A DNA stretch of 64,000 nucleotides from a virus: IMG/VR virus record IMGVR_UViG_3300030012_004221, positions 62,001-126,000 of that record, one strand, 5' to 3'. The position numbers and the translations under genes were made by a program. Shown here piece by piece: positions 17,531-35,029 of this stretch (position 1 is the stretch's first letter; each line of letters starts with the position of its first letter). The notes under the pieces were generated by a model. It was not told the DNA's origin and made no database searches. It was given only the letters and a program-made list of their open reading frames with translations.

Positions 17531-19180
17531 TTAAAAATCAAGATTATCTAATGGAACTTCGGTTTCAGGAGTTGGTTCTTTTTGAGTTGGGTGATCAACT
17601 ACAACACATTCTGTTAAAAGAATTGTTCCAGCTACAGAAGCAGCATTTTCAAGTGCTGTTATAGTTACTTTTGTTGGATCTAAAATCCCTGCTTCTTCCA
17701 TATTTACAACTTCTCCTATTTCTAAATTATAACCTGCCCAATAATCATCTCCAGAATTACAAAGATCATTAGCTATCATTTCAGCTTGAGTATTATCATA
17801 TCCTGCGTTAACAAGAATCTGAATGAATGGTTTTCTACATGCTTTCTTTACAAGAACAGAACCTAAATCATCATTTGATAACCCATTAGAAGCATATAAT
17901 AATGCAGCTCCACCACCAGGAAGAATTCCTTTATCTAAAGCAGCTTTAGTAGCATGTAATGCATCATCGACTCTATCTTTCTTTTCTCTCATTTCTATTT
18001 CAGTATGTCCACCTACATGAACTATTGAAACCCCACCAATCATTTTAGCTAAACGGTTTTGTAAATGTTCTATAATATAAGGAGTATCTTCTTTATCAAT
18101 TTGAACTTGAAGATCCTTTACTCTATTATTTATAGCTTCTTCATCACCTTTACCATCAACAATTGTTGTTTGTTCTTTAGTAATAGTTACAGCACGTGCT
18201 TGTCCAAACCATTCCCAACTAAATTTATCAAGTTTCATTCCTTTGTCTTTATCAAACACAGTACCACCTGTTAATGTAGCAATATCTTCAAGAATTAATT
18301 TTTTTCTTTCTCCAAAGTCTGGGGCTTTAACTGCTGCTACTTTAAGGATCCCTCTTGCTTTATTAACAATAAGAGTAGCTAACGCTTCTCCTTCAATATC
18401 ATCAGCAATTATAAGTAATGATTTATTAGCATTAGAAACACTTTCTAAAATTGGAAGTAAATCTTTTACTTGTGTAAATTTATGATCTGCAATTAAAATA
18501 TAAGTATCTTCTAATGTACAACTCATATCTGCATTATTTGTTACAAAGAAATGTGATTTATATCCTCTGTCAAATTGCATACCTTCTACAGTTTCAAGAT
18601 AAGTATCTCCTGATTTTGATTCTTCAATGTGTACAACCCCATCTCTACCTACTTTTTCAATAGCAGTAGAAATTAGGTTTCCAATTTCAATATCATTGTT
18701 TGCTGATATAGTTGCTATTTGTTTGAGTTGTTCTTCGGATGATATTTCTTTAGAAATATTTTCTCTAACAACATTGATTACTTCTTTTACAGCTTTATCA
18801 ATACTACGTTTTATCCCATTAGCATTTTCACCATTATTAAGATGTTTTAATCCTTCTCTAATTAATTCACGTGCTAAAAGAGTTGATGTTGTTGTTCCAT
18901 CACCTGCTTTTTCATTTGTTTGTTTAGCAGCTTGTTTTACTAATTGAGCTCCTAAATTTTTAACTAAACCATGAACTACAATATTTTTGGCTACAGTTAC
19001 ACCATCTTTAGTGTTTGTTGGTCTATAATTATCATCATAACCATTATGATCTATTAATACATTTCTCCCATTAGGGCCTAATGTACATACAACAGCATCA
19101 GCTAGAATATTAATTCCCTCCATAACTTCTGCTCTTGCTTTAGGTCCAAATTTTACTAATTTATTTTTTGGTATCGGCAT
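17531..19180 (-). CDS. groEL: GroEL-type chaperonin
   Basis: A 549-residue group I chaperonin, the normal length. The ATP-site motifs are intact: CTLGPNGRNV, TKDGVTVAK, GDGTTTSTLLAREL and RVDDALHATKAALDKG with PGGGAALLYA. The C-terminus lacks the usual Gly-Gly-Met tail and instead ends in acidic VPLDNLDF. Together with the GroES gene 11 bases upstream it should form a folding cage for phage proteins. Most T4-like phages encode only a co-chaperonin (gp31) and use host GroEL, so carrying both is unusual. Confidence 0.97.
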   Translation of the reverse strand: MPIPKNKLVKFGPKARAEVMEGINILADAVVCTLGPNGRNVLIDHNGYDDNYRPTNTKDGVTVAKNIVVHGLVKNLGAQLVKQAAKQTNEKAGDGTTTSTLLARELIREGLKHLNNGENANGIKRSIDKAVKEVINVVRENISKEISSEEQLKQIATISANNDIEIGNLISTAIEKVGRDGVVHIEESKSGDTYLETVEGMQFDRGYKSHFFVTNNADMSCTLEDTYILIADHKFTQVKDLLPILESVSNANKSLLIIADDIEGEALATLIVNKARGILKVAAVKAPDFGERKKLILEDIATLTGGTVFDKDKGMKLDKFSWEWFGQARAVTITKEQTTIVDGKGDEEAINNRVKDLQVQIDKEDTPYIIEHLQNRLAKMIGGVSIVHVGGHTEIEMREKKDRVDDALHATKAALDKGILPGGGAALLYASNGLSNDDLGSVLVKKACRKPFIQILVNAGYDNTQAEMIANDLCNSGDDYWAGYNLEIGEVVNMEEAGILDPTKVTITALENAASVAGTILLTECVVVDHPTQKEPTPETEVPLDNLDF

Positions 19181-19847: not shown

Positions 19848-19869
19848 AACCTAAGGGCGCTTTTAGGTT
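19848..19869 (-). terminator. terminator-like hairpin after hsp20
   Basis: Seven perfect base pairs (AACCTAA with TTAGGTT) around an 8-nt loop, overlapping the Hsp20 stop codon. The sequence that follows on the minus strand is T-rich but interrupted (GGTTTATATTTAATTTTTT), so termination may be partial. Confidence 0.5.
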
Positions 19870-20287
19870 ACTTAATTTTAATTGCTTTCGGTTTAGCTTC
19901 TTTAGTTAATGGTATTGAAATTTTCAATAAGCCATTTTCCATTTCAGCATCTATTTTTGTCAAATCAAATTTAGGAGCAATTTTATATCCTAAATTGAAT
20001 GATTTCCTACTTAAACCATGGTAAATATAACCTGATAGATCAAGTTTTTCTTCTTCTTTAGGTTTAGTATAGGATATCCTTAATACATCAGATTCAATTT
20101 CAATTGAAATATCTTCTTTTGTAAGACCAGTACATGCAATCTCGAAGTAAAGACCTTCTTGATCGTAGTAAATGTCTAGTGGATGTGGTTGTTTTGAATT
20201 AAGTGCAGGAGCGAATGTTTCGTCTGCTTTGAAAAAATTTCGATATAAAATATCGAATGGGGTGTGTTCATAAAATAATGTACTCAT
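19868..20287 (-). CDS. small heat-shock protein (Hsp20/alpha-crystallin)
   Basis: A 139-residue Hsp20. The alpha-crystallin domain covers about residues 33-125 (YFEIACTGLTKEDISIEIE, then AEMENGLLKISIPLT, the latter holding the conserved GxLxIxIP motif) and the C-terminal tail KPKAIKIK carries the IxI-like anchor. It holds unfolded proteins for refolding and probably works with the phage GroEL/ES. Hsp20 is common in T4-like marine phages. Confidence 0.95.
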   Translation of the reverse strand: MSTLFYEHTPFDILYRNFFKADETFAPALNSKQPHPLDIYYDQEGLYFEIACTGLTKEDISIEIESDVLRISYTKPKEEEKLDLSGYIYHGLSRKSFNLGYKIAPKFDLTKIDAEMENGLLKISIPLTKEAKPKAIKIK

Positions 20288-20380: not shown

Positions 20381-21115
20381 TTAAAATTCTGTTTCTGCTT
20401 TCCTTACTATAAAATATCTAGAAGAAATATCATCTAGTTTAAAATCCAATTGGATTAGTCCCATACTACTTAAATACATTTTACCACCTTCCATATCTTT
20501 ATTTGCTTGAAGGATGGTTTTAAATGTATCTGAGTTGAATGGTAATTTAATATCTTTTTCTTTAATATCTCCTTTAACTTGATATGTTATCTTATTATTA
20601 TGTCCAGATTCATCTCCAAACACAAATTCAACTACATCCTCACCATCTAAATTTGTAGTTGTAGTTACTAACATGTTATCAACTTGGGATAATGCACTTT
20701 TTGCTCTAATAATATTTTCAACATCTTCAGATGTTAAATCTAATTCAACAACCCATTCTGGGACTGTTACTTCACCTACCTTATTTATTAATAAAGGATC
20801 TGATAAAGCATAATTTAAGTTAAAATTTAAATCAGATATTTTTAATTTAGTATAAATTGCATTATTTTTTTCTAGCTCTAGTAATAAATCACCATTACAA
20901 ATATTAATTAAACTTAATAATTTTTTAGTATCATAAATGGCTAGTTTACTATTTTCTAATTGAAAATTATCACACGCAACAGAACCTATAACATCTTTTG
21001 TAGGTGTCATAAAATTAATTCCTAATTTATTATCCTCAATTACCCATTTTACAGCTTCATTTACTCCAAGGTAATATTTGTTAATAATTGATTGTATTGT
21101 TAATTTATTTATCAT
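20381..21115 (-). CDS. 45: sliding clamp, gp45-like
   Basis: A 244-residue protein of the size of T4 gp45 (228), with the two-domain beta-rich pattern of gp45-type clamps (IDKxx-like early segments, LSDPLLINKVGEVTVPEW between domains, and a C-terminal SSRYFIVRKAETEF). It would form a trimeric ring on DNA that tethers the polymerase and, in T4, activates late transcription. It overlaps the carbamoyltransferase gene by 4 nt. The polymerase genes lie upstream in the same unit. Confidence 0.85.
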   Translation of the reverse strand: MINKLTIQSIINKYYLGVNEAVKWVIEDNKLGINFMTPTKDVIGSVACDNFQLENSKLAIYDTKKLLSLINICNGDLLLELEKNNAIYTKLKISDLNFNLNYALSDPLLINKVGEVTVPEWVVELDLTSEDVENIIRAKSALSQVDNMLVTTTTNLDGEDVVEFVFGDESGHNNKITYQVKGDIKEKDIKLPFNSDTFKTILQANKDMEGGKMYLSSMGLIQLDFKLDDISSRYFIVRKAETEF

Positions 21116-22785
21116 TTTTTAGTATACATTTTATCATTTATTACTAGTTTATCTACTATTCCGTTGTCCAAATGTACGAAAGCTTCTTTGGGACGACAAA
21201 CTATAGGTTCACCATGTACGTTAAAGCTAGTATTTAGCAAAACAGGAATATCTGTTATTTCTCTAAAACAATCTAACAAATTATAAAATTTAATATTTGA
21301 GTCTTTAGTTACTATTTGTATTCTTGCTGTTTTATCTACAGGATGAACTACAGCTGGGATTTTATCATACCACTCTTTTCTTGTATCATATAACATAGTC
21401 ATGAATTCAGCTGTGTATCTAGATTTATTAACATGAAATACAGTATCAGCATAATTATCTAATACTACAGGAGCAAAAGGCATATTATCATTTCTTTGTA
21501 ATCTATCGTTAACTTTTTTATATGTACCTGGAACACTTGGGTCAGCAATTATACTTCTATTACATAATGCTCTAGGACCATGTTCAGATCTTCCCTGAAA
21601 CCATCCTATTACTTTACCTTCCTTTAAGTCATAAGCTAATGAAGATTTATCATATGGTCTAATATGATATTTTTCATGATCATCTTTTACTTCCCCAAAT
21701 GCAATTGATTTTTGAGAGACTGGGGTGTTGGGGTTTATTGGGAATTTATTATCATAAGATGTTCCTAAATAAACATCTTTTAATCTAAATGGTTTAAAAT
21801 CTGAGTTGTGTTTTTTATAAACAGCTAAAGCTGATCCCAAAGGTAAACCTTCATCTCCCATAGGTGGAGCAACAAATACCTCATTTACCCACTTTAATTC
21901 GTTAATTTTTTTATTTAGTTTTACATTAGCAAAAACACCTCCTGCTAAAGCAATATTTTTAGCTTTAGGGTATTTATTATGGTAATAATCTATTAATTGT
22001 AGTACTTTTTTTTCAAAAACTAATTGGCCATTATAAGCTAAATCTTCTGGTTTGAATGAATGAGGACCATCACATAATAATGGATTATTATTAACAAATA
22101 ATTTATAAAAATCTTCATATATTTTTCGTGTATTTCCTACATCCCCCATAGGGTGGTCTAAATCAGTTTGACCTGTTTTAGATATAGTAACACACTCGTT
22201 AAAAGATTCATATATCCAATCAACATATTCTCCATGAGATGATAATCCTACAATTTTACCTTCATCTTTTAACCTTTTAAACCCTAAAAGTTCAGTAAGC
22301 ATACAATAATAATGACCTAAAGATTTAGTATTTAAAGAATGTTGTTGAATAAGTTCTAAATTACCTTTTTTTCCTACATAACACCTCGCCCAATCATACT
22401 CTCCAGCTCCATCAATAGAAATTACAAGTGTATCTTTTTTAAACCCACTACAATAATAAGCTAAATTACAGTGAGCTTCATGATGGTTAATATGAATCCA
22501 TTTTTCTTTGGGAAAAGGACCTAAACCAATTCCTTCCCATATATTTTTACTTATTTTTAAAGGAAAATTAGTTGTTAAGTAATCTATTTTATTCCAATCA
22601 AAATTTTTATTATACCAAACATTTTGTCCTGATTGGTAAGGATATCTAAATATGTTATTAAAATAATCTTTATAAGTTCTAATCCTATTAAACCTTTCTT
22701 CTTCAAAAGCAAAAATAGGTTTACCATCTTCTAAATATGCTATACCGCAACTATGTTCTCCCCCACTTAAAGCTAATATTCTCAT
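21112..22785 (-). CDS. NodU/TobZ-family carbamoyltransferase
   Basis: A 557-residue carbamoyltransferase. The N-terminal Kae1-like domain shows LALSGGEHSCGIAYLEDG, HHEAHCNLAYYCSGF and SIDGAGEYDWA; the conserved GRSEHGPRALCNRSI and LLNTSFNVHGEPIV mark the C-terminal half. Members transfer a carbamoyl group from carbamoyl phosphate via a carbamoyl-adenylate to a hydroxyl. In phages related enzymes can act on modified nucleobases or sugars. Here it is embedded between clamp and polymerase genes rather than in the sugar cluster, which suggests a DNA-linked substrate but does not prove it. Confidence 0.92.
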   Translation of the reverse strand: MRILALSGGEHSCGIAYLEDGKPIFAFEEERFNRIRTYKDYFNNIFRYPYQSGQNVWYNKNFDWNKIDYLTTNFPLKISKNIWEGIGLGPFPKEKWIHINHHEAHCNLAYYCSGFKKDTLVISIDGAGEYDWARCYVGKKGNLELIQQHSLNTKSLGHYYCMLTELLGFKRLKDEGKIVGLSSHGEYVDWIYESFNECVTISKTGQTDLDHPMGDVGNTRKIYEDFYKLFVNNNPLLCDGPHSFKPEDLAYNGQLVFEKKVLQLIDYYHNKYPKAKNIALAGGVFANVKLNKKINELKWVNEVFVAPPMGDEGLPLGSALAVYKKHNSDFKPFRLKDVYLGTSYDNKFPINPNTPVSQKSIAFGEVKDDHEKYHIRPYDKSSLAYDLKEGKVIGWFQGRSEHGPRALCNRSIIADPSVPGTYKKVNDRLQRNDNMPFAPVVLDNYADTVFHVNKSRYTAEFMTMLYDTRKEWYDKIPAVVHPVDKTARIQIVTKDSNIKFYNLLDCFREITDIPVLLNTSFNVHGEPIVCRPKEAFVHLDNGIVDKLVINDKMYTKK

Positions 22786-23169: not shown

Positions 23170-24102
23170 TTAAAATTTAAAAAACATTTCTTTATATGGA
23201 TTTAAATTTAATGTCCAACCTAAATCATTATAAAATCCTTCTAATTTATTTAACAAAATACTTTCAAATATTTTTTTCCTATCAGCATTTTGTTCTATAA
23301 ATGTACGTATTTTTTCAGGTAAATCCCAATCTAAAAATGCTATTGCATCAATTTGATATGGGTTAGGTTTTAAATAAATCCATTTAACTTTATCACCCTG
23401 TGTAATTTGACTATGTTTACTACTTAACCCCCAGAATCTAAGTAAATCATTATATCTAATAACAGCTCTTACAGCTGCTGGGGCTCCTTTAGCTACAACA
23501 GTAAACATTTCACCTGCTCTAGCTTTACGTTCAGTATACTTATTTAATGTTTTTACAGATGTTGGGTTACCTAACTCCGTTAATTGAATAGAGCCATCAA
23601 GAATTTGTTTTTTAAAATCTTTTACTCTATTATCTATTTCATTTTGTGCGGCCCCCTTTAAAACATCTACTAATGTTTTATGAAAAAATTTACCTAATAC
23701 AGGTGGGAAATTAGCTTTTTTAAATTCTAATCCTTTAACATCTAATGATTCTTTTACTATACCTTCTTGTTTAGTAATCCATTGTGCATAACGTCTTGTT
23801 GCTCTAAAATAAGCTGAACGTATAACACATTCAGTTTTCATTTCTAGTCTATGTTTACCTTTAGCATTAAAACAATCTTTAGCTAATTTATCATATGATT
23901 TAGTAACAATTCCTTCATAATCCATTGCTATACCTTCTAAAGCATCATCTTTTTCTTCAGCATTCATTTCATCAAAATCATCATGTCTAAATCTTAATAA
24001 AGGTTCAGCATGCATATAAATTGAATCTGTATCACTATAAGTACAGTAATTAGTATCTTCAGGATCACAAATCCACCAAGGAGTATCTTCTAAATGTTTC
24101 AT
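23170..24102 (-). CDS. 43: family B DNA polymerase, C-terminal part
   Basis: A 310-residue polypeptide holding the end of a T4 gp43-like polymerase. It begins just before motif C (YSDTDSIYM at about residues 22-30, with the two catalytic aspartates), continues with a KKxY-type region, and covers the palm end and thumb. Its ATG overlaps the stop of the N-terminal gene by 4 nt (ATGA), so the two halves are coupled in translation. Alone it lacks motif A and the exonuclease. Confidence 0.93.
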   Translation of the reverse strand: MKHLEDTPWWICDPEDTNYCTYSDTDSIYMHAEPLLRFRHDDFDEMNAEEKDDALEGIAMDYEGIVTKSYDKLAKDCFNAKGKHRLEMKTECVIRSAYFRATRRYAQWITKQEGIVKESLDVKGLEFKKANFPPVLGKFFHKTLVDVLKGAAQNEIDNRVKDFKKQILDGSIQLTELGNPTSVKTLNKYTERKARAGEMFTVVAKGAPAAVRAVIRYNDLLRFWGLSSKHSQITQGDKVKWIYLKPNPYQIDAIAFLDWDLPEKIRTFIEQNADRKKIFESILLNKLEGFYNDLGWTLNLNPYKEMFFKF

Positions 24103-25769
24103 GCTTTTATTTCTTTATTCATTGCTCTATTAGCTTCTAATGCAGATTCTTGTATAATACGCTGTCCACTAAGTGTTATAGCTTCAGATAAAATTACATT
24201 ACCATAACGGAATGAACCAAGAGCAGTCGCACCATATAACGAATTAAGCAAAATTTTCATTGTATATTGTTTCATATGATAAGCAGCACCTAATTCTTTA
24301 TCTCCAGATTTATATGCTTTTTTCATTGCATTTTTATACTTAACTCTTTCATCAAACCATTTTTTTAATATAGTTGATAATACTGATTCCCGATTAGTAG
24401 CAAACATTACTCCATTTGCTGAGATAGATAATTCATTTTCTTCAATCATCTTAACTAACCTACCTACATTAACTTTAGTTTGTTTTCTTTTATTATTTTC
24501 AACAATTAATTCTTCAGCATAATCTCTAGTTTTTAAATCATTTAACCCTAAACGATTGTTTCTATCATCAGCATCCATAATTCTACCAACCATAGTTTCT
24601 TTACCAATATTAACAGTCATTATAATTGAAGGATATAGTGATGTTAAATCTAAGTCAAAAACATAGTTATAAATTCCTGCTTTAGGGCAAAATAAATAAC
24701 CACCAGCATAGTTCTTTTTAGATAATGGATTACGATCTTTAGCAGGTGGTATTATATTTTTACTTAATAAATAAGCTGATATAGCTCCATCTTGTGTTTT
24801 AGTATTAGCATAAACTTCACTATAATTATGTTTACCTTTATGAGCCAGATTTTTTACTAATGACAAATACTCTAATTTTTCATCTAGTACTTTTAAAATT
24901 TCAACATCTCGAAAGTTATATTGAATAAATTTAAGGGGATCCTCTTCAAATAATTTATCTAAATTACCATCATATTCTATTTTCTTTATATTAGCATATT
25001 TTTCTCCAATAGCATCTAATTTAAATGATGGTTCATCTGCCCAACTAAATTTCTTATGTAGTCTCATATAATCTAAAGACTCAACACCTGCTATTTGAAT
25101 ATATTGATCTTTAAACCAAGGTGTTTCTCTTACATAACCAATTGGGGATAAATGTCTAGCCCAATCTTCACCTAATACATTACACATTCTATAGTATAAA
25201 TAAGGTATATCAAAATAATCACTATTCCATCCTACTAAAATATCAGGATCAATTTCTCTAAACTTTTCTAAAAATTTTGCTAATAATTCTTCTTCTGTTT
25301 TACAAGGTATAATTTCTTTAGTTTTAGCTTTTGTTCTATCCATTTTAGATTTTGGATCTAAAATTAAAATAGCCCATTGATCTACTTGTTTATCATACCA
25401 TGCTATTGAAGTTACTTTTTTAGGTGCTGATTTAATATAATCTTCAGTAAGTGCATCACCCATTTCTGTTTCAATATCAAAAAATAATTCTTTTTGTGTA
25501 GTTGAGGGTTCATCATTTGTGCCATACTTTTCAACTAGAAATTTTTGATATGGAGTCATATCATGAAAGTGGAGTTTTATATTATCTGATTTCCAATTAG
25601 AAATCTTTTTTAATGACTCTCCATTTAGACCTGTATGTGTAGATTGAGAATCATCACATTCTATGTAAGCTTGATTAGTCCACTCAATTTTACTATAACC
25701 TTTATCTTCCCAAAGATGAACTAAAAATTCATTACCTTTTATTCTTTGAGCAAAACACTTTTTATACAT
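24099..25769 (-). CDS. 43: family B DNA polymerase, N-terminal part
   Basis: A 556-residue polypeptide with the 3'-5' exonuclease motifs (FFDIETE, VGWNSDYFDIPYL, YNFRDVEIL), motif A (FDLDLTSLYPSII) and motif B (MKILLNSLYG), then it stops before motif C, which is on the next gene. The two together (about 866 residues) equal a whole gp43 (898). Split gp43 is known in some T4-like phages such as certain Aeromonas phages. No homing-endonuclease gene lies at this split. The halves should assemble into one enzyme with the gp45-like clamp. Confidence 0.95.
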   Translation of the reverse strand: MYKKCFAQRIKGNEFLVHLWEDKGYSKIEWTNQAYIECDDSQSTHTGLNGESLKKISNWKSDNIKLHFHDMTPYQKFLVEKYGTNDEPSTTQKELFFDIETEMGDALTEDYIKSAPKKVTSIAWYDKQVDQWAILILDPKSKMDRTKAKTKEIIPCKTEEELLAKFLEKFREIDPDILVGWNSDYFDIPYLYYRMCNVLGEDWARHLSPIGYVRETPWFKDQYIQIAGVESLDYMRLHKKFSWADEPSFKLDAIGEKYANIKKIEYDGNLDKLFEEDPLKFIQYNFRDVEILKVLDEKLEYLSLVKNLAHKGKHNYSEVYANTKTQDGAISAYLLSKNIIPPAKDRNPLSKKNYAGGYLFCPKAGIYNYVFDLDLTSLYPSIIMTVNIGKETMVGRIMDADDRNNRLGLNDLKTRDYAEELIVENNKRKQTKVNVGRLVKMIEENELSISANGVMFATNRESVLSTILKKWFDERVKYKNAMKKAYKSGDKELGAAYHMKQYTMKILLNSLYGATALGSFRYGNVILSEAITLSGQRIIQESALEANRAMNKEIKA

Positions 25770-26324: not shown

Positions 26325-27023
26325 TTAAATTTGATGTCCACCATTATTTATTTTAATTGAGTCAAAAAACTCTTTTCTTGCTAAGTTAGTATTTTGTCTA
26401 AATACACCTGATGCTTTAGTTGTTACCATTGAAGCACCATCATGCTTAACTCCTCTACAACTTACACAATTATGGGTTGCCACAACTGTTACAATTACTC
26501 CTCTATTACCCTCAGTAACTTTATCTACAGCATTATGAATTGCTGATGTTAATTGTTCTTGTATAGCACCTCTTCTACCAAATAATTCAACTATTCTATT
26601 TAATTTAGATAATCCAATTACTTGACCACCTTCTCCAGCTATGTAACCAATATGAACAACACCTTTAATAGTTTGATGATGGTGTGAACACATTGATGTT
26701 AATGGAATGTTTCTTTCAATTACAATACCATCATAACCATCTGATGGAAAAGAAGTAATTGGAGACATTGGGCTATATCTACCTGCCCATAAATCATTCA
26801 CATATGCTTTAGCTACCCTTCTAGGTGTGTCAGCTGAGTTTGGGTCATTTTGCCAGTCACAATCTAATGCTTCTAAAAATCGAGCATAAGCAGCAGTAGC
26901 TTTCTCAATCATTTTTTCCTTTTGTTTTTCATTTAAAGGAAAATTAGTTGCAACCCCATTTGCAAAACCTTTTTGTACAACCTCTAATTTTTCATTGAGG
27001 TTTTTAATCTTTTTTTCTGCCAT
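26325..27023 (-). CDS. folE: GTP cyclohydrolase I
   Basis: A 232-residue FolE. Zinc ligands are in SMCSHHHQTIKG and THNCVSCRG, and VIGLSKLNRIVELFGRR and GASMVTTKASGVF are conserved active-site segments. It turns GTP into 7,8-dihydroneopterin triphosphate, the first step to preQ0 as well as folate. QueD, QueE, QueC and a DpdA-like gene lie in the next 7 kb, so the product most likely feeds 7-deazaguanine synthesis. It has its own motif TTTGTATATT 25 nt upstream. Confidence 0.95.
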   Translation of the reverse strand: MAEKKIKNLNEKLEVVQKGFANGVATNFPLNEKQKEKMIEKATAAYARFLEALDCDWQNDPNSADTPRRVAKAYVNDLWAGRYSPMSPITSFPSDGYDGIVIERNIPLTSMCSHHHQTIKGVVHIGYIAGEGGQVIGLSKLNRIVELFGRRGAIQEQLTSAIHNAVDKVTEGNRGVIVTVVATHNCVSCRGVKHDGASMVTTKASGVFRQNTNLARKEFFDSIKINNGGHQI

Positions 27024-27047
27024 TGTTTATAACTTTTTATTATTATT

Positions 27048-27057
27048 AATATACAAA
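27048..27057 (-). promoter_or_regulatory. candidate promoter of folE (TTTGTATATT)
   Basis: A perfect TTTGTATATT on the minus strand 25 nt before the folE ATG, followed by an AAAAAGTTATAAAC leader that touches the start. It lies right after a terminator-like hairpin. Confidence 0.55.
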
Positions 27058-27059
27058 TT

Positions 27060-27079
27060 AATTTGGACAATTCCAAATT
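27060..27079 (-). terminator. hairpin between LamG-like gene and folE
   Basis: Eight perfect base pairs (AATTTGGA with TCCAAATT) and a 4-nt loop, three nt after the stop of the LamG-like gene. No clean U-tract follows, so it may be a weak terminator or an RNA-processing element. Confidence 0.45.
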
Positions 27080-27082
27080 AAG

Positions 27083-28153
27083 TTAACTAAGTCCATATCT
27101 ACCTTTTAGGGCATCATACACATCACTTATTTCACTATTTGATAATGCTTTATTGTAACATAATACAGCTCCAATACCATTAGGTCCTTCTACAGCACCA
27201 GCATAACCATATCCTACTCTAACATTTAATGCTGGGTCTAAAGCTGTATTACTTCTTGAATTATAACTTGCAACCCAATTTGCTCCATTTTTAGAATAAA
27301 ATCCAGTTCTAGCAGTTGATGTTAATCCTGTGGTCATTTTTATAGCCATTATAGTCCAAGCACCCTCACCACTATTAGTATCACAAGCTGCTGTGTTTGC
27401 ATGATCATAATTAGGTGTTTTTCTTGAATAATAAGAAAATGCTTCACTCGTTTCCCATGTAACAGCTATTTCTTGTTTGTAAGATTGTGGTCCACTATCT
27501 CCTTTTTTTTCAAATATAGTATCTCTTTCTGTAATTTGAGTACACCAAACTGCCATTACGAGTGTGCAATCACCTCCCATATTAACAATAGGAGAATGAG
27601 ATAATACAGCTTCATAATATCCACTTCCATCAAACTGATAAGCACAATAACCTCCTAAAAACTCTTTACTTAAACCACCACTTTTAGGTTCAAATTCAAT
27701 TCCATTTCCACTTACATCAAACCAAGAAGTACTGTCACCAACATAAGCACTTGCACTTATTTGAGAATCTAAATACATAGATAACCCATCCATAGGTAAC
27801 TCAGGTGGGAAATTATCTATTGGTGTATTTTTATTATTATGACTAACCATTGCATCAGCATTAGTTAAATATTCTAAAGCCTCTGCTAATGTTGTAATAG
27901 ATGGTTGGTTAAAATCTTGTTGAACTAATTGAATTAATTCTGCATCACTTGTAGGAGTATAAGAAATTGGTACTATGCCTGAAGATGGTGCTTTTGTTAC
28001 TACATAACCAGTTGATACTGTTTGAGCATAATAATCTGTTTCAGCTGAAGGTCCGTAATTACCATCAACAACTGCCTTATTAATATCACTTTTTACAATT
28101 GAATTTGAATCTACTTCTTCAGAAACTTTTACAGGGGGACGATCCATTGACAT
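27083..28153 (-). CDS. LamG/concanavalin-like structural or adhesin protein
   Basis: A 356-residue protein. The N-terminal 120 residues are linker-like; from about residue 121 (MDGLSMYLDSQISASAYVGD, SSWFDVSGNG) a jelly-roll concanavalin/LamG-type domain follows, ending in NSEISDVYDALKGRYG, the usual end of such domains in phage fibre and neck proteins. It is expected to be a virion decoration or receptor-binding protein. A late-type motif precedes the small ORF just upstream, in line with late expression although early genes flank it. Confidence 0.65.
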   Translation of the reverse strand: MSMDRPPVKVSEEVDSNSIVKSDINKAVVDGNYGPSAETDYYAQTVSTGYVVTKAPSSGIVPISYTPTSDAELIQLVQQDFNQPSITTLAEALEYLTNADAMVSHNNKNTPIDNFPPELPMDGLSMYLDSQISASAYVGDSTSWFDVSGNGIEFEPKSGGLSKEFLGGYCAYQFDGSGYYEAVLSHSPIVNMGGDCTLVMAVWCTQITERDTIFEKKGDSGPQSYKQEIAVTWETSEAFSYYSRKTPNYDHANTAACDTNSGEGAWTIMAIKMTTGLTSTARTGFYSKNGANWVASYNSRSNTALDPALNVRVGYGYAGAVEGPNGIGAVLCYNKALSNSEISDVYDALKGRYGLS

Positions 28154-28154
28154 A

Positions 28155-28313
28155 TTACGGAGTATTATTTATTATAGAATTATAAAAAACATATGCATCT
28201 TCTTTTGTATCATAAAATGTTCTAGTAGTTTCATAAGAAGGCCAATTGTAAAAAGCATCAATCCACCATTTACCAGAATCAGAGTCATAATCCATATTGC
28301 AAAAATATACCAT
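28155..28313 (-). CDS. small aromatic-rich hypothetical protein (52 aa)
   Basis: An ATG-started frame of 52 codons ending one base before the LamG-like gene start (TAATATG). The product is rich in Tyr, Trp and Asp (GKWWIDAFYNW) and looks like a compact folded domain. A late-type ATATTTATA motif lies 12 nt before the start. It is probably co-expressed with the LamG-like protein. Confidence 0.6.
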   Translation of the reverse strand: MVYFCNMDYDSDSGKWWIDAFYNWPSYETTRTFYDTKEDAYVFYNSIINNTP

Positions 28314-28324
28314 AATGTTTTAAT

Positions 28325-28333
28325 TATAAATAT
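28325..28333 (-). promoter_or_regulatory. late-type promoter motif ATATTTATA
   Basis: ATATTTATAATTAAAAC on the minus strand, 12 nt before the 52-aa ORF. It overlaps the stop codon of the phosphoribosyltransferase gene. It is the only site of this class inside the early-gene region and drives the LamG-like structural gene. Confidence 0.5.
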
Positions 28334-28752
28334 TATGGTAATTTATAATCTTGAATCGCTTTAGAATCTTTTCTCTCCCAGGGATATATAATCCATTCAT
28401 TACCTTCAAATCTTTGGGCATAAGCTGTAGGTGTAAATTTTGAAGTGTGTGGTTTGTGATGTAAAACAGCTGTTATAGCTGCTTCACTATTATATAATGT
28501 TTCTCCACTATCACAAATATCATCAATAAGTAAAGTATTTCTTATTGTTTTATCATCTGACCATAATATTTTATCAGTATATGGAAGGTTTAACTTATGT
28601 GAAACTAATACTGCTGGTATTAATCCACCTCTAGCTAAACCTGATATATGAGTTACATTTGGTATTTTTGTTGCTATTTTTTCACATAAAACTTCTACTA
28701 AATCTTCAACATCGCTCCAATTTAAATATATTTTATTATCTATTTTTATCAT
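28333..28752 (-). CDS. phosphoribosyltransferase-like protein
   Basis: A 139-residue PRTase-fold protein with the PRPP-binding loop LLIDDICDSGETLYN and an N-terminal GLARGGLIPAVLVS. It is short for the family. It resembles xanthine/hypoxanthine phosphoribosyltransferases of phages and could salvage a base or handle a deazaguanine intermediate. It lies within the preQ0 gene region. Confidence 0.85.
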   Translation of the reverse strand: MIKIDNKIYLNWSDVEDLVEVLCEKIATKIPNVTHISGLARGGLIPAVLVSHKLNLPYTDKILWSDDKTIRNTLLIDDICDSGETLYNSEAAITAVLHHKPHTSKFTPTAYAQRFEGNEWIIYPWERKDSKAIQDYKLP

Positions 28753-28758
28753 TAATTT

Positions 28759-29097
28759 TTATCTTTTACCCCCATGATATTCAACTGCATGGCCTTCAGT
28801 TATTAAAGTTTGATTAACATTTCTTCCATCAACATATATGATACCTAAACATCTTCCAAATTTACCTACTCCCATTGATTGTAAAGTAAATCTACCACTT
28901 TCTAAAAGTTCTTCTAATCTAATTTTTGAAGCTATACCTTTAGCTTTTTCATCTAAATCTCTAGTTCTTGATTCAGGGGCATTCATACCATGCATCCTAA
29001 TTCTTACTCTTTTCCAAGTATCAAATCCTAAATCTACAAGAGCATCAACAGTATCTCCATCAACAACTCTATCTAATTTTGCGTTATATTCATACAT
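28759..29097 (-). CDS. thermonuclease-like (SNase) protein
   Basis: A 112-residue staphylococcal-nuclease-fold protein. VDGDTVDALVDLG, RIRMHGMNAPESR (catalytic Arg) and GRCLGIIYVDGRNVNQTLI with GHAVEYHGGKR are the family motifs. The first Asp and Arg are present and the protein is near minimal length. No signal peptide, so cytoplasmic. It could degrade host DNA or RNA. It overlaps the flavodoxin gene by 8 nt. Confidence 0.88.
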   Translation of the reverse strand: MYEYNAKLDRVVDGDTVDALVDLGFDTWKRVRIRMHGMNAPESRTRDLDEKAKGIASKIRLEELLESGRFTLQSMGVGKFGRCLGIIYVDGRNVNQTLITEGHAVEYHGGKR

Positions 29098-29608
29098 TTA
29101 TTTCTGTTTTTAATTGTTTATACCAATTTTCTAATCTTTCTACAGTTAATTCATCTTGATTATCTTCATCTAAACATAACCCCCAAAATGTATTTTCATC
29201 TTTAAGAGCTTTAGAAGATTCAAACTCAAATGAATCGTCTTTTTTAGTGAGGCCTATTACTTTACCTCCATTTTCCTCAACTACTTTAGCTAATATTCCT
29301 ACACCATCACAAAACCACTCGTCATACCCAATTTGGTCACCTAAACCAAATATAGCTACTGTTTTACCTGTAAAATCTATAGTTTTAAATTCTTCAAAAT
29401 AATCTTCCCAATCACTTTGTAATTCACCATCATACCAAGTTGGTATACTTAAAATATAAAAATCATGTGATTTCCAATCTTCAGGTCTAACAGCATGTAC
29501 ACCTATAGTTTCAATATCAAAATAAGGTTCAAAAATACCTAATAGATTATTATCTATAACATTTTCAGTATTACCTGTATCTGAACCATAAATTAATTTA
29601 ATTTTCAT
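29090..29608 (-). CDS. flavodoxin
   Basis: A 172-residue flavodoxin with the FMN phosphate loop IYGSDTGNTENV at the N-terminus, TWYDGELQSDWEDY and GLGDQIGYDEWFCDG forming the isoalloxazine loops. It carries single electrons in the cytoplasm. The gene lies two genes from queE, a radical SAM enzyme that needs a reductant, and flavodoxin is the known donor for E. coli QueE. Ribonucleotide reductase activation is another possible use. Confidence 0.95.
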   Translation of the reverse strand: MKIKLIYGSDTGNTENVIDNNLLGIFEPYFDIETIGVHAVRPEDWKSHDFYILSIPTWYDGELQSDWEDYFEEFKTIDFTGKTVAIFGLGDQIGYDEWFCDGVGILAKVVEENGGKVIGLTKKDDSFEFESSKALKDENTFWGLCLDEDNQDELTVERLENWYKQLKTEINV

Positions 29609-29753
29609 AACTATTTTTTATATCAACTAATAATTCCATAATTTCCTCTACCTTAAACTTGCATTCCTGTCCTTCACATAAATCTTGACAGCAACGATCA
29701 GTATTAAGATAAATAAATTCTAATTTTTCATCTATTTCATCCCACTTAGACAC
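29598..29753 (-). CDS. small cysteine-containing protein (51 aa)
   Basis: A GTG-started frame of 51 codons bridging queE and the flavodoxin gene. It overlaps the end of queE by 8 nt and the flavodoxin start by 11 nt, as is usual for genes in this genome. The product holds four cysteines in CCQDLCEGQEC, which could bind zinc or an iron-sulfur cluster. No family is recognised. Confidence 0.5.
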   Translation of the reverse strand: MSKWDEIDEKLEFIYLNTDRCCQDLCEGQECKFKVEEIMELLVDIKNSYEN

Positions 29754-30525
29754 AACGTTCAGTATTAAAAGCCATAATATGAGATCTACCTGTAAATCTC
29801 CATCCTCTATCTCTTACAAAATTCATTACTTCAGGATATGACTCCATTAAAGATTCTCTATCATCCCCAGCAGGCATAGCCCAAACTTTATGGTCTGGAA
29901 TATTACATTCTTTAAGCATTTCTTCAACTTCTCCAACCATAGATAAATTTTTATCTAATACAGGTTTAATATGATAATCTGAATGGTAAGCTATTGATTT
30001 TTTAATTGCATCAATATTCATTCTTTTTGAATTATGCTTTTTAATCATCCTTTCATCTGTCACAGTACCCTGAGGTGTTTTAACACCAAGTACGGGGATG
30101 CTATTACTAAACTTGGGACTAATAGAAAGCAAGTTAATAGGGTAATCAGTAGGAAGAAAATGGCTACCTTCAGTTTCAATAGTAATAAAAATATCTCTTT
30201 CATGAGCAAAGTGGGTTAATTCATTTACTAATTTAGGATGCATCGTAGGAGATCCTCCTGTTAACATCATTTCCTTGATATGAGGATGCTGATCATATGC
30301 ATCTATAATATCTTGAAAACAATACATTCCTTTTTCAGGATGAATACTTGTATACCAAGAATCACACCATCCTCCTTCTCCAAAATAACATCTATGAGTA
30401 CACCCAGTAGTTCTAATTACTATGGTAGGGTAACCTTGACGACTACCCTCACTTTGTACTGCCGTGTATACTTCTACTACAGGCAGATTTTTACTATAAT
30501 CTTCGATTCTTTTTAACATATGCAA
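29746..30525 (-). CDS. queE: 7-carboxy-7-deazaguanine synthase (QueE), radical SAM
   Basis: A 259-residue QueE-like radical SAM protein. FxEVYTAVQSEG and the later MMLTGGSPTMHP (SAM-binding GG) and ITIETEGSH are QueE-like. The cluster motif is C42-x3-C46-x7-C54 rather than the standard CxxxCxxC. The enzyme should convert 6-carboxy-tetrahydropterin to 7-carboxy-7-deazaguanine. Start could also be the internal Met at residue 3. A promoter-like GTTGTATAT sequence lies about 26 nt upstream. Confidence 0.88.
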   Translation of the reverse strand: MHMLKRIEDYSKNLPVVEVYTAVQSEGSRQGYPTIVIRTTGCTHRCYFGEGGWCDSWYTSIHPEKGMYCFQDIIDAYDQHPHIKEMMLTGGSPTMHPKLVNELTHFAHERDIFITIETEGSHFLPTDYPINLLSISPKFSNSIPVLGVKTPQGTVTDERMIKKHNSKRMNIDAIKKSIAYHSDYHIKPVLDKNLSMVGEVEEMLKECNIPDHKVWAMPAGDDRESLMESYPEVMNFVRDRGWRFTGRSHIMAFNTERCV

Positions 30526-30551
30526 ATTTTTTAAAGTGGTTTTACAGTCAC

Positions 30552-30561
30552 TATATACAAC
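30552..30561 (-). promoter_or_regulatory. weaker early-type motif before queE
   Basis: The minus strand reads GTTGTATATA, matching eight of ten positions of TT[T/C]GTATATT, about 26 nt before the queE start and just after the queD stop. Confidence 0.35.
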
Positions 30562-31029
30562 CTATTCTCCAATATAACATGCAGCATTTTTACCATGCTC
30601 CATAAATTTAACTTTGGTAACTTTTACTCTACCTTCAGTTTCAGTATCTACAAATTTTTGTAGCTTATTATAAATATATTCAGCAAATTTTTCTGCACCA
30701 GTTGCTTCAACTTTTCTTAACTGAATTACTCCTAATTTATCCATTGTTTCAAAACCTTTAAGACCTGGATCATCTTCTGCTACTACTACGGTGTGATCAA
30801 ACATATAATCCATCCATTCTTTAGGTGACTTACCATCAATTTGAGTTTTAGCTCTTTTCATACCACCAAAATCCCAAACCCAATTTCTATGATCTAATTC
30901 ACCTTCAAAATATACTTTAAATGAAATACCATAACCATGCAAAAATCTACAATGTGTTGTTTCTGCTTTCCATTGACGAAATACAGTACTAAATCCGTCA
31001 AATACTTTACTTGATTGAAACTTACCCAT
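30562..31029 (-). CDS. queD: 6-carboxytetrahydropterin synthase (QueD-like)
   Basis: A 155-residue member of the PTPS/QueD superfamily. Cys27 and His31 in HCRFLHGYG line up with the catalytic Cys and a zinc His of E. coli QueD, but the next zinc His is Tyr33 here and the N-terminal zinc His is not evident; His26 may replace it. NWVWDFGGMKR and MFDHTVVVAEDDP match the family middle part. The role is formation of 6-carboxy-tetrahydropterin from the FolE product. It overlaps the thioredoxin gene by 8 nt. Confidence 0.85.
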   Translation of the reverse strand: MGKFQSSKVFDGFSTVFRQWKAETTHCRFLHGYGISFKVYFEGELDHRNWVWDFGGMKRAKTQIDGKSPKEWMDYMFDHTVVVAEDDPGLKGFETMDKLGVIQLRKVEATGAEKFAEYIYNKLQKFVDTETEGRVKVTKVKFMEHGKNAACYIGE

Positions 31030-31279
31030 TATACCAATTTTTTATAGCTGTTATCCCATCAAAAGCACCTACATGTCTTTTAATTTCGTTTCCATTCATA
31101 TCTGTTACAATACTAGTAGGAATGTTTTTTACGTTATATTTCTGTGGAAGATCTGCATCATAATCAATGTTTATCTTTCTAACAGGGATACCTGATTTGG
31201 CTATTTCTTCCATTTGTGGTGATAGTGCTTTACAAGGTCCACACCAAGGAGCACTAAAATATAAAATACCTTTATCCAT
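31022..31279 (-). CDS. thioredoxin
   Basis: An 85-residue thioredoxin with the redox motif in SAPWCGPCKALSPQ and the cis-proline in VKNIPTSIV. It is short relative to the usual 105 residues but holds all catalytic elements. It probably reduces ribonucleotide reductase (NrdA at 42053) or other phage enzymes. It is placed inside the que gene run. Confidence 0.95.
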   Translation of the reverse strand: MDKGILYFSAPWCGPCKALSPQMEEIAKSGIPVRKINIDYDADLPQKYNVKNIPTSIVTDMNGNEIKRHVGAFDGITAIKNWYNG

Positions 31280-31296
31280 TTTTATTTAATTTTTAA

Positions 31297-31530
31297 TTAT
31301 ACTAATTCTTCTATTATACCAATTGCTTCACTCAATATAAGTAAAACAGTTGCAGTTACCAAACTAAAAGGAATAAAAACATAACCTACAATCCTTACAC
31401 CAGATTTAATAAAACTAATTATTTGGTGTAATTTAGGATCAGGATGATCTATTGTACCATTTTTTTTGGCTAAGCGGTTTACTAATTTATCTACCTCTTT
31501 ATCTAAATGTTTGTCTTGAATATCATTCAT
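31297..31530 (-). CDS. small membrane protein (77 aa)
   Basis: A 77-residue protein with a charged N-terminal half (HLDKEVDKLVNRLAKK) and a C-terminal hydrophobic region of about 35 residues (VRIVGYVFIPFSLVTATVLL) that could span the membrane once or twice. No family is recognised. It lies three nt after the queC stop. Confidence 0.6.
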   Translation of the reverse strand: MNDIQDKHLDKEVDKLVNRLAKKNGTIDHPDPKLHQIISFIKSGVRIVGYVFIPFSLVTATVLLILSEAIGIIEELV

Positions 31531-31533
31531 AAT

Positions 31534-32379
31534 TTAATTTTTAATTTGTTCTAATTCATATTCAGCAAGAACTTGCTCTACATAAATCCTAGCTGTTTCA
31601 TAATCAACTGCACCTGTTTCATCCGCATATTGTACTGGATCAGGTCTTCCTAGTTTAATAAACGCTTCAATACGTTCTACAGACGATGCTGATTTATAAT
31701 CAGACCATCCTTCTGGGGTTGGTTTATATGAAGTATTTGTTCTAGCATAAACTTCATCAAAATCAATCTTTAATTTTTTACATAAAACTTCTCCATCTTT
31801 TAAAATATCAAATTTATCACCATTTAAATAAGGTGTATAATATGATACTCTTGATGCTTCCCAATTACCTTCAGCAAACGCTTTATAATCAGCATCTCTA
31901 AATTCTTGTCTACAATCAGGATAAATTGCATGATCACCAGCGTGAATACCCATTGCTATTCTAACAGGTGATTCTGTTTTATTTGCTATTGATAATGCTA
32001 CAGCTTGTACTAGTGAAGAAAATATTTTATTTCTATTAGGTACTACTGTAGCTTTCATATTATCTTCAGCATAATGTCCTTCTGGTACTTCATCTCCACC
32101 TTCTACTAAAGCTGAGTCTAATAATTCTACTAAACCATCTAATTTAATAACTTGATAATTAACATTATGACCATTTCTTTTTAAATAATCTACTAATGCT
32201 CTTGCTCTTTTAAGTTCAACTTTATGTTTTTGACCATAGTCAAATGACATAGCTGTTACTGTTTCAAATTCATCAAGACATCTAAGCAATAATGTACTTG
32301 AATCCATACCACCTGAAAGTGATACTACTGCATGTTTTGGACGTGCTGCGTCTTTAAAATTAATTTCTAATTGTGTCAT
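31534..32379 (-). CDS. queC: QueC-like preQ0 synthase lacking zinc cysteines
   Basis: A 281-residue QueC-family PP-loop ATPase. LSGGMDSSTLL (residues 21-31) is the ATP pyrophosphatase loop, and SFDYGQKHKVEL and AIYPDCRQEF are QueC-specific. QueC normally turns 7-carboxy-7-deazaguanine into preQ0 and carries a C-terminal zinc knot with four Cys. Here the aligned region (about residues 214-240: SYKPTPEGWSDYKSASSVER) has none, the knot positions being mostly serine. It may still make preQ0 or give another amide product. Confidence 0.9.
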   Translation of the reverse strand: MTQLEINFKDAARPKHAVVSLSGGMDSSTLLLRCLDEFETVTAMSFDYGQKHKVELKRARALVDYLKRNGHNVNYQVIKLDGLVELLDSALVEGGDEVPEGHYAEDNMKATVVPNRNKIFSSLVQAVALSIANKTESPVRIAMGIHAGDHAIYPDCRQEFRDADYKAFAEGNWEASRVSYYTPYLNGDKFDILKDGEVLCKKLKIDFDEVYARTNTSYKPTPEGWSDYKSASSVERIEAFIKLGRPDPVQYADETGAVDYETARIYVEQVLAEYELEQIKN

Positions 32380-32428
32380 TTTTATTATATTAAAATTTGC
32401 CAGGTATTATAAAGCGTATAGGCAAACG

Positions 32429-32650
32429 CTACATTTCATTTAATTTAAGCATTTTTTCTCTAATAACCACCCTAAAGTGATTATTTTGTATTTTAGCACT
32501 ACCTCCTTGTTTAAGAAGCTTTCTAAATAAAAATTCTTCATTTTCATTCCAAAATTCACTTAAAGCTATAATTTCATCTTTATTAGCTACTTCTTTACTT
32601 TTATTTAAGTAAACTTTATGAGTTGATCTTATTGATTGTTTTTTTAACAT
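32429..32650 (-). CDS. hypothetical basic protein (73 aa)
   Basis: A 73-residue protein, basic at both ends (MLKKQSIRSTHKVYLNKSK), with FLFRKLLKQGGSAKIQ in the middle. No domain is recognised. A 49-nt gap to queC contains a small five-pair hairpin. Confidence 0.55.
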   Translation of the reverse strand: MLKKQSIRSTHKVYLNKSKEVANKDEIIALSEFWNENEEFLFRKLLKQGGSAKIQNNHFRVVIREKMLKLNEM

Positions 32651-32653
32651 ATT

Positions 32654-32782
32654 TTATACTTTAGATGCAACAAAAAATACAAATAATACAATAACAGCAA
32701 TTAAGGAAGTAACAGCCAAGCTAATTCCAAATGCTAGTTTTATACCAGTCATTACATAATTATGGAATTTTTTTCTTTTCAT
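32654..32782 (-). CDS. small single-span membrane protein (42 aa)
   Basis: An ATG-started frame of 42 codons. The product begins with basic MKRKKFHNYV and continues with one hydrophobic helix of about 25 residues (AVTSLIAVIVLFVFFVA). Its start overlaps the upstream stop (ATG inside TAATG). A small inner-membrane peptide of unknown role. Confidence 0.55.
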   Translation of the reverse strand: MKRKKFHNYVMTGIKLAFGISLAVTSLIAVIVLFVFFVASKV

Positions 32783-32961
32783 TACATATATTTAGGAACC
32801 CTAAATTTTAATATTGGATTACCATTAACAGTAGGTTGACCCATCTCATCAATTCCAATTTCTTTGACTTTAACTGGTTTATTCCTAAATCTACCAGTTA
32901 GTATTGTATCTCCTTTTTTAATAGGAATTATAAAATAATCTTCTATATATGTTGCTTTCAT
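32782..32961 (-). CDS. hypothetical protein (59 aa)
   Basis: An ATG-started frame of 59 codons, overlapping the dpdA stop by 4 nt and the next small gene by one base. The product MKATYIEDYFIIPIKKGDTI is followed by GRFRNKPVKVKEIG and NPILKFRVPKYM, suggesting a small beta-rich domain such as an SH3- or KOW-like fold. No function is known. Confidence 0.6.
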   Translation of the reverse strand: MKATYIEDYFIIPIKKGDTILTGRFRNKPVKVKEIGIDEMGQPTVNGNPILKFRVPKYM

Positions 32962-33764
32962 ATATTATTAATTTTTCTAAATTTGTTAACATTAAATTCT
33001 AATAAATCATAATCAACTTGATCATCTAACATATAAAAGTAATCATTCATATTTGCTGTTGGTTTCTTAAATAAACCAGCACTAGTATATGCTATATCTT
33101 CTAAAGCAGCCATTACTGGGTTAGATGTATCAATTGATTCAATACAATTTATATTTTTATACCATCCAAATTCTTGGGGTACAGCACATCCTAGTAAATG
33201 AACTCTATCATCTTGTTTTAACTCCCCAGTTTTAAGTAAAGTAGATATTACAAATAATCTACCTAATGCTTTACCTAAATCTTTATTAGGATGGGTACAA
33301 ATATCATTATAATAAGAAGCACCATATGAAAATGCTATTTTTCCATAACCTAATTCTTTATATCTTCTAGCACAAGTAGCTGCTTGTTCAAGAGTAGTAG
33401 CTTGTACAACTGCTACTTTTTCAACTCCTATTGGAAAATCATATATTTGCCAAATTGCGGCATTATGTATAGATTGTCCTGAGTCTTCCCAAACATCTGG
33501 TACTATAAATTCATTAGGTTTTAATTCATTTACCCAGTGAATTAGACGTTCATGAGTATAAGCTTCACCTAGCTCATGTAATGAGTTATCCATTATAATA
33601 TAACGTCCTTGTTCTTTTGCTTTCTGAAAATATTCTAAATATTTAGGTTCTTCATCTAGTAAATGGGGAAGACAATAATCATAGTCATTAAATCTTTGAC
33701 TATCTTCTAGTAAACACATTGGAGTTTCATGACTGATTTTGATGTTACTAACTTCGACTTTCAT
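32958..33764 (-). CDS. dpdA: DpdA-like DNA 7-deazaguanine transglycosylase
   Basis: A 268-residue protein resembling the tRNA-guanine-transglycosylase/DpdA superfamily. IIMDNSLHELG and EFIVPDVWED carry aspartates placed as in that TIM-barrel family, with GKIAFSYGASYY and VHLLGCAVPQEFGW later. DpdA proteins replace guanine in DNA with preQ0 or a derivative, protecting phage DNA from restriction. FolE, QueD, QueE and QueC in the neighbouring 7 kb supply the substrate. The family call is by motif and context, not a search. Confidence 0.75.
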   Translation of the reverse strand: MKVEVSNIKISHETPMCLLEDSQRFNDYDYCLPHLLDEEPKYLEYFQKAKEQGRYIIMDNSLHELGEAYTHERLIHWVNELKPNEFIVPDVWEDSGQSIHNAAIWQIYDFPIGVEKVAVVQATTLEQAATCARRYKELGYGKIAFSYGASYYNDICTHPNKDLGKALGRLFVISTLLKTGELKQDDRVHLLGCAVPQEFGWYKNINCIESIDTSNPVMAALEDIAYTSAGLFKKPTANMNDYFYMLDDQVDYDLLEFNVNKFRKINNI

Positions 33765-33820: not shown

Positions 33821-35029
33821 TTAATTATATTTTATAATTAAATCATCATTATCTCCTGCTTTTAATTCGTCAATCCTTTTTTGTATATTTTTCCAACCTT
33901 TAGGACCATATTTATGAGTTTTAGGAGTTTTTGATTTTAATTCTTCTAATTCCTGAATAGTTAAATTATCTATTGATTCTGTTTGTTGTGGTTCTTCTTC
34001 GTTTTCATCATGAAACCAGTCATTATTTTCATAATGTAACCCTTCATTACCATTCTGGCCTATAATGTTCATTCTTTCTTCATCTTCATCTTTAATATTA
34101 TCAGCATAATATCCCTCTTCAACCCATTTTTCTTCACCTACACTATCTAAGGTTTTGTCTAGATTACTATTAAAATCTTCTTCTACTACAACTTCTTCTC
34201 TATAAAGGTTTTTTTTTGTTTTTGGTCTAATTTGTTCAAAAGCAAAATTAGCAGCTACTACAAGAGCAATTGCTAACGGATCAAATACAAATATAATAGT
34301 TAATAATAACCAATTAATAATTCTATCCATAGGCCAACCAGTTAACCCTGATAGGTATTTAAGAGGTCCTAATTCACTAGATACAGCATCGCTTAATCTT
34401 ATTTCAACTATTTCTTCTTCAAATTTAAACAATGCTTCATTTAATTGATCTATTTTATAATTTATTTCTGTTTGTCTATCAATAGCTTGATCTAATTGTT
34501 GAGTCAAAATTCTACGAGTTGTTGAACTTTGTGTAGTAATTATATTACCTAATGTGTCTTTATACTGTATTCTATTCGTAGATAAACCATTTCTTAAACT
34601 AACCACAGCCTCATTTATAGATGATTTTTCTTCATTATATACAATAAGTTGTTCTTTAACATTATCTCTTTTTACTTCTACTAATTCTATCTTGGCATCA
34701 ATTGTTCCTGCTTTTGCAGCAGTTTCCTGATATGCTGCTGATAAAAATCCATAAATACCCATTGAAGTAATTACAATTAAAACAAAGCAAGCTATGGATA
34801 AATACCATTTTAAAAGCTTAGGGAGGTTTTTTCTGTATTGATATAAAAGAGATGCTATTACTAACTTAGCTATTTCTAGTGAAGCTGCCATTACTATAAC
34901 AGCAAAAGCTGCTCCTGCAAATAATTTACTTAAACCACTAACTGAGTAAAATGCTGCTGATGCACTTACAGATAGTGCCGAGAAAGCAATTAATAAAGGA
35001 AATAGTGATTTTTTAATTTTACTAAGCAT
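33821..35029 (-). CDS. membrane protein with coiled coil
   Basis: A 402-residue protein with about three membrane spans in the first 100 residues (LLIAFSALSVSASAAFYSV, FAGAAFAVIVMAASLEIAKL, WYLSIACFVLIVITSMGIYG), a long coiled-coil segment (about 108-220), another span at about 238-262 (LLLTIIFVFDPLAIALVVAA) and an acidic cytoplasmic tail. It lies next to the lysis and envelope genes, so a role in lysis timing, superinfection or envelope remodelling is possible. No family name is recognised. Confidence 0.75.
   Translation of the reverse strand: MLSKIKKSLFPLLIAFSALSVSASAAFYSVSGLSKLFAGAAFAVIVMAASLEIAKLVIASLLYQYRKNLPKLLKWYLSIACFVLIVITSMGIYGFLSAAYQETAAKAGTIDAKIELVEVKRDNVKEQLIVYNEEKSSINEAVVSLRNGLSTNRIQYKDTLGNIITTQSSTTRRILTQQLDQAIDRQTEINYKIDQLNEALFKFEEEIVEIRLSDAVSSELGPLKYLSGLTGWPMDRIINWLLLTIIFVFDPLAIALVVAANFAFEQIRPKTKKNLYREEVVVEEDFNSNLDKTLDSVGEEKWVEEGYYADNIKDEDEERMNIIGQNGNEGLHYENNDWFHDENEEEPQQTESIDNLTIQELEELKSKTPKTHKYGPKGWKNIQKRIDELKAGDNDDLIIKYN

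Follow-up and report, generated by a model that had tools for sequence, protein, structure and literature searches.

Several systems in which guanine of phage DNA is exchanged for a 7-deazaguanine have been described. Escherichia phage CAjan and Mycobacterium phage Rosebush, the DNA of which contains dPreQ0, the deoxynucleoside of preQ0 (7-cyano-7-deazaguanine), encode the full set of enzymes for preQ0 synthesis and a DpdA1 with the fold of a tRNA-guanine transglycosylase (TGT), and carry no QueF (PMC6884629); in Rosebush about 28% of G is replaced. Firehammervirus DNA carries deazaguanine (PMC8713573), present in the Campylobacter phages CP220 and CPt10 of this genus as dADG, the deoxynucleoside of 7-amido-7-deazaguanine (ADG), and Hutinet et al. 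(2019) described Campylobacter phages as highly dADG-modified yet without recognisable DpdA (PMC6884629). The cassette analysed here lies at 26325-33764 of a window of 64,000 nucleotides, which corresponds to bases 62001-126000 of the 158,183-bp virus contig IMGVR_UViG_3300030012_004221 of IMG/VR and comes from a marine phage. It is predicted to encode FolE, QueD, QueE, QueC and a DpdA3-type transglycosylase, together with a phosphoribosyltransferase (PRT) that we propose recycles the guanine set free by the base exchange. The core of the cassette is a further example of the known pathways of DpdA phages, and what marks it as a variant is the proposed coupling to the PRT and the loss of metal sites in QueC and QueD.

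The closest likeness is to Flavobacterium phage vB_FspM_immuto (Immutovirus), which has the same genes at 40-72% protein identity, including a QueC without zinc ligands and a Gpt-like PRT beside FolE; unlike the present locus, immuto carries QueF and a formyltransferase adjoining DpdA, with QueC apart, and neither of these two enzymes was found in this contig. CP220 and CPt10 encode QueD and QueC, and CP220 a homologue (gp056) of the transglycosylase, but the QueC of CPt10 has the zinc cysteines, the genes are scattered and no PRT was found. The DpdA1 proteins of CAjan and Rosebush are not recognisably related by sequence to the transglycosylase in the window, and no PRT was found in CAjan or in the Rosebush relative Arbiter. 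The genes of the cassette are as follows.

26325-27023, minus strand: FolE, GTP cyclohydrolase I (PF01227, E=2.9e-43; phrog_2197, E=8.6e-59), with MCSHHH and HNCVSCRG in the translation
27083-28153: protein of 356 amino acids between FolE and the PRT, without Pfam match; homologues only in the close relatives L004, L005 and L061
28333-28752, minus strand: Gpt-like 6-oxopurine (xanthine/guanine) PRT, the proposed guanine recycler (family profile and fold)
28759-29097, minus strand: SNase-like nuclease within the cassette (PF00565, E=2.8e-9; phrog_452, E=1.8e-35; homologues in 32 related loci)
29090-29608, minus strand: long-chain flavodoxin, optional (TIGR01752, E=9.2e-51, above cut-off)
29746-30525, minus strand: QueE-like radical SAM synthase of 7-carboxy-7-deazaguanine (CDG) (phrog_2076 'QueE-like', E=1e-48; 72% identity to immuto QueE)
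30562-31029, minus strand: QueD-like synthase of 6-carboxy-tetrahydropterin (CPH4), with HGY for HGH (PF01242, E=1.4e-14; phrog_2389, E=1.2e-38)
31022-31279, minus strand: thioredoxin-like protein, in its usual place between QueC and QueD (PF00085, E=4e-15; syntenic in most relatives)
31534-32379, minus strand: QueC-family 7-deazaguanine amide/nitrile synthase, with the PP-loop kept and four zinc cysteines gone (PF06508, E=7.3e-38)
32958-33764, minus strand: predicted DpdA3-type DNA guanine transglycosylase of 268 amino acids (homology, fold and invariant residues)

The clustering of FolE, QueD, QueE and QueC with a transglycosylase-like gene, noted in the initial annotation, was confirmed by Pfam, PHROG and NCBIfam for the first four genes and by fold and homology for the fifth. 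All five genes in that list stand, on the minus strand, but it had overlooked the PRT and the thioredoxin.

The 32958-33764 protein is left unnamed by Pfam and NCBIfam, in which the best hits were DUF6610 (E=0.009) and the NCBIfam DpdA model NF041059 (11.5 bits, where 200 bits is the cut-off), and these sub-threshold hits, together with that to 7ui4 in a PDB sequence search (E=0.13), were not used as proof. A relation to DpdA families, as initially suggested, thus did not emerge from the named DpdA1 and NCBIfam profiles, which stayed below cut-off, but from homology to two phage proteins, that is, 40% identity to the annotated DpdA of immuto and 36% identity over 97% of the length to CP220 gp056 (E=8e-38), the latter matched by the profile of the window transglycosylase family at E=4e-74. 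Remote relatives are present in Cellulophaga phage phiST and Chryseobacterium phage MA9V-3. The AlphaFold model, built from 61 sequences (pLDDT 93.1), is a TGT-type (beta/alpha)8 barrel, and the best 50 Foldseek rows (E about 1e-7 to 1e-8) and the best 50 VIA-align rows are all tRNA-guanine transglycosylases or DpdA. The bacterial DpdA of PDB 7ui4 has the same fold (VIA Z 17.1, 231 residues aligned), but is larger (413 versus 268 residues), shares 16% identity and belongs to a restriction-modification island. Among the positions invariant in the 61 relatives are D59 (DNS), D90 (PD), H189-LLG192 and D212-T-S-x-P216 (DTSNP), and the Asp motifs resemble in sequence the catalytic and base-binding Asp motifs of TGT and DpdA. 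Judged by model and sequence, the protein is a member of the TGT/DpdA superfamily, as anticipated, and since the sequence comparison with DpdA1 fails, it is by sequence a CP220-type DpdA, DpdA3-like rather than DpdA1. Cui et al. (2023) reportedly named the CP220 type DpdA3 and tied it to complete guanine replacement; for the DpdA3 label and the '100% replacement' we follow papers that cite this work. By analogy, because the enzyme is DpdA3-like and not DpdA1, a near-complete replacement of guanine is favoured.

The product of the PRT gene was identified by both profile and model. The matches of a profile built from 16 relatives are almost exclusively guanine, xanthine or hypoxanthine enzymes, among them 1vdm (E=2.6e-25) and E. 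coli XGPRT (E=1.5e-12), and the structural model likewise matches guanine/xanthine PRTases. Aligned to E. coli Gpt, the protein shows the corresponding motifs DDICDSGET (the loop for phosphoribosyl pyrophosphate, PRPP), HKP and WIIYPWE and keeps the catalytic Asp and Lys; its score is below the NCBIfam XPRT cut-off. On sequence and model the protein is a 6-oxopurine (guanine/xanthine) phosphoribosyltransferase, for which the use of guanine is predicted.

We then counted PRT genes in 57 related loci with DpdA and a downstream FolE, which represent 47 distinct cassettes. A PRT lies inside or just beside the cassette in 54 of the 57 loci (44 of the 47 distinct cassettes), usually directly upstream of FolE and in three loci directly downstream. 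It is of the HGPRT (hypoxanthine-guanine PRT) type in 42 loci (lowest E to TIGR01203 8.6e-44, slightly short of the curated cut-off) and Gpt-like in 12, and the subfamily switches at least six times on the DpdA tree, in which many forks are weak. That one PRT type gives way to a non-orthologous one at the same place speaks for a PRT function that has been kept.

The same association was found outside this group, when 50,697 phage records were searched with two independent queries, the window PRT and E. coli Gpt. If fragments of bacterial appearance and unannotated faecal ones are set aside, both queries matched only phages with preQ0 genes, and an HGPRT query of the phage records gave only 18 matches, mostly unannotated fragments. 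The Gpt-like PRT of immuto adjoins FolE. In Brevundimonas phage MaInes, which has a DpdA3-like gene, a xanthine PRT abuts FolE, and in Synechococcus phage BUCT-ZZ01 the order is QueE-XGPRT-x-QueD-FolE-x-DpdA2 homologue. In Stenotrophomonas and Pseudomonas phages, the beginning of the FolE protein (residues 1 to about 115) resembles a PRT by sequence alignment, a part unreported by Pfam, and the operon of Stenotrophomonas phage ply2008005c reads QueE-QueC-QueD-[PRT-FolE]-DpdA1, with a CAjan-type DpdA1. In the phiST group the PRT is about 17 kb away from the DpdA-like gene. Every one of the five isolate lineages with a PRT holds a DpdA-subfamily homologue, and a PRT near or fused with FolE recurs across unrelated DpdA1, DpdA2 and DpdA3 phages. 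No PF00156 match was found in CAjan, Arbiter, Dp-1, KVP40, CP220, CPt10 or phiSM. In the literature searched, outside which key papers lie, no paper mentioned both DpdA and a phosphoribosyltransferase, and the link may already be published.

The pathway we propose would start with the synthesis of preQ0 from GTP by FolE, QueD, QueE and QueC. After replication, the DpdA3-type enzyme would trade guanine in phage DNA, probably most or all of it, for the 7-deazaguanine, which would shield the DNA from restriction. Each exchange would free one guanine; with 48,287 G-C pairs in the contig, every fully exchanged copy of the genome would yield about 48,000 of them. The Gpt-like PRT would convert the freed guanine with PRPP to GMP, and host kinases would raise GMP to GTP, the substrate of FolE, thereby closing the loop. 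We hold this full explanation, with preQ0 synthesis, DpdA3-type exchange and guanine recycling by the PRT, to be probable for the phage studied here. With less assurance, we lean towards the wider proposition that 7-deazaguanine-modifying phages from several independent lineages recycle guanine in such a loop through a dedicated PRT, sometimes fused to FolE, enabling whole-genome replacement of guanine.

The cassette is conserved beyond this contig. In 43 IMG/VR contigs, retrieved with the DpdA sequence and compared for synteny, the order DpdA-QueC-thioredoxin-QueD-QueE-FolE is kept in all but a few of the contigs of sufficient length, and as the gene order recurs in dozens of IMG/VR contigs, the cassette is more than a chance grouping. 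A profile scan of viral contigs gave at least 586 confirmed matching stretches. Some copies lie in flavobacterial metagenome-assembled genomes (MAGs), and since immuto is also a Flavobacterium phage, the sequences suggest flavobacterial hosts. Remote DpdA3 relatives were also seen in MAG contigs of Rhodobacteraceae and Spirochaetia (L144, 1-11627, and L143, 1-3843), both of which carry a zinc-bearing QueC and QueF, L144 also a formyltransferase, as in immuto.

Two enzymes of the cassette are unusual at their metal sites. QueC keeps the PP-loop (SGGMDS, canonical SGGxDS) and has NTSYKP...SDYKSASSVER where TCY...CxxCxxC is expected, all four zinc cysteines being gone. The canonical zinc motif C(x)8CxxCxxC (PMC13329287) is absent from the window protein, from immuto and from nearly all relatives, among which only L143 and L144 keep it, and the cysteines are retained in QueC of the Campylobacter phages and DpdA1 phages examined. 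This zinc-less PF06508 protein probably works like QueC, and by analogy probably still reaches preQ0, because immuto pairs such a QueC with QueF. QueD has the PTPS domain (PF01242) and reads C(x)3HGY, in place of the canonical C(x)3HGH, in 97 of 97 sequences covering the site; its upstream zinc histidine is Phe.

As to the base, profiles for QueF, formyltransferase (Formyl_trans_N) and TGT (PF01702) gave no match in the whole contig, QueF was above cut-off in none of the 11 environmental relatives searched (it is present in immuto and three remote relatives), and the search for phiSM and phiST accessory genes gave no homologues here. As the contig yielded neither QueF nor a formyltransferase nor a further TGT, preQ0 is taken as the default, and gene content points to dPreQ0 as the likeliest product, followed by dADG. 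The latter would arise by the same DNA modification, as in Firehammervirus, if the zinc-less QueC halts at the amide. This alternative is possible though doubtful: QueC forms ADG on the way to preQ0 (PMC13329287), its zinc signature is missing here and CP220 relatives carry dADG, but the QueC of immuto (67% identical) is equally zinc-less, yet immuto has QueF, which needs preQ0, and CPt10 retains the QueC cysteines though its genus has dADG.

Other explanations change the role of the PRT or of the whole cassette. The PRT could be there for the general salvage of purines from broken-down host nucleic acid, its place in the operon being accidental, as nucleotide-salvage genes are frequent in phages and CP220 does without a PRT. 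We regard this as unlikely in view of the near-complete confinement of the Gpt-like PRT to preQ0/DpdA phages among the records searched, the PRT-FolE fusion in one lineage and the swapping of two PRT types within the cassette. Still less likely, though a serious rival, is a PRT that acts on the deazapurine itself, with the nucleotide then reduced and incorporated by the polymerase and with DpdA secondary. There is a precedent in TubE, the CDG-specific PRPP transferase of the 7-deazapurine (tubercidin) pathway (PMC6112128), and the PRT adjoins QueE in BUCT-ZZ01 and is close to ribonucleotide reductase and dNMP kinase genes in MaInes. However, TubE rejects plain deazaguanine, CDG would here go to QueC and the catalytic Asp and Lys of Gpt are kept; this reading is less likely because every PRT lineage keeps a DpdA relative and the HGPRT-type versions, matching the hypoxanthine-guanine PRTase model, look like ordinary guanine enzymes. 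That the cassette raises queuosine in host tRNA and leaves DNA unmodified appears very improbable. FolE-QueD-QueE-QueC is common to queuosine synthesis, and such a role was suggested for phages without DpdA (PMC6884629), but the transglycosylase groups by sequence with the DNA-modifying DpdA relatives of immuto and CP220 and not with tRNA TGTs, and neither PF01702 nor QueF was found in the contig.

Several points weigh against the proposed exchange and recycling. The modification is deduced from genes and models. HHalign of the transglycosylase family against the DpdA1 set gave a probability of 4%, and thus no sequence-profile link to DpdA1. The PRT is accessory and no requirement, since CP220, the closest phage with published modification, has none. 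The environmental cassettes share ancestry, so that 44 of 47 does not stand for 44 independent events. The contig may be incomplete, which makes the absences of QueF, formyltransferase and TGT provisional, and a QueF of the host could turn preQ0 into preQ1. With QueC lacking the zinc cysteines and QueD two of the usual zinc histidines, product or activity could differ.

Some details of the cassette and its surroundings may be added. Comparison with relatives makes it likelier that QueE starts at the ATG two codons into the listed frame, which begins with TTG. The flavodoxin, found only in L004 among the 43 relatives, is a possible electron donor for QueE, and one may speculate that the SNase-like nuclease targets unmodified DNA. 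Directly upstream of DpdA, 33821-35029 encodes a predicted membrane/coiled-coil protein, with homologues in 100 of the related loci searched. Promoter and terminator scans gave signals not above shuffled sequences. Near the cassette, 21112-22785 encodes a NodU/Nol-like carbamoyltransferase (phrog_1601, E=8e-93), which was considered for base tailoring but is assigned no role, as it has few relatives in cassette loci and no hydroxymethylase of thymidylate-synthase type was found. A family B DNA polymerase is encoded by two overlapping genes (24099-25769 and 23170-24102), split ahead of the YSDTDS motif; the same separation is seen in about 18 of the 21 related loci compared, and the parts are continuous in L140, L097 and L042. 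A phage-encoded GroEL (17531-19180, E=1.3e-189) and an Hsp20-like protein (19868-20287) were also identified.

Through these findings the DpdA3-type pathway gains a large group of phages, most of which are uncultured. A second oddity is the QueC without zinc cysteines, a member of an enzyme family now linked to anti-phage defence as well. Recycling by the PRT, if true, would favour base exchange after replication, and the feeding of the by-product of exchange into the first step of synthesis would indicate how a phage could afford the swapping of tens of thousands of guanines.

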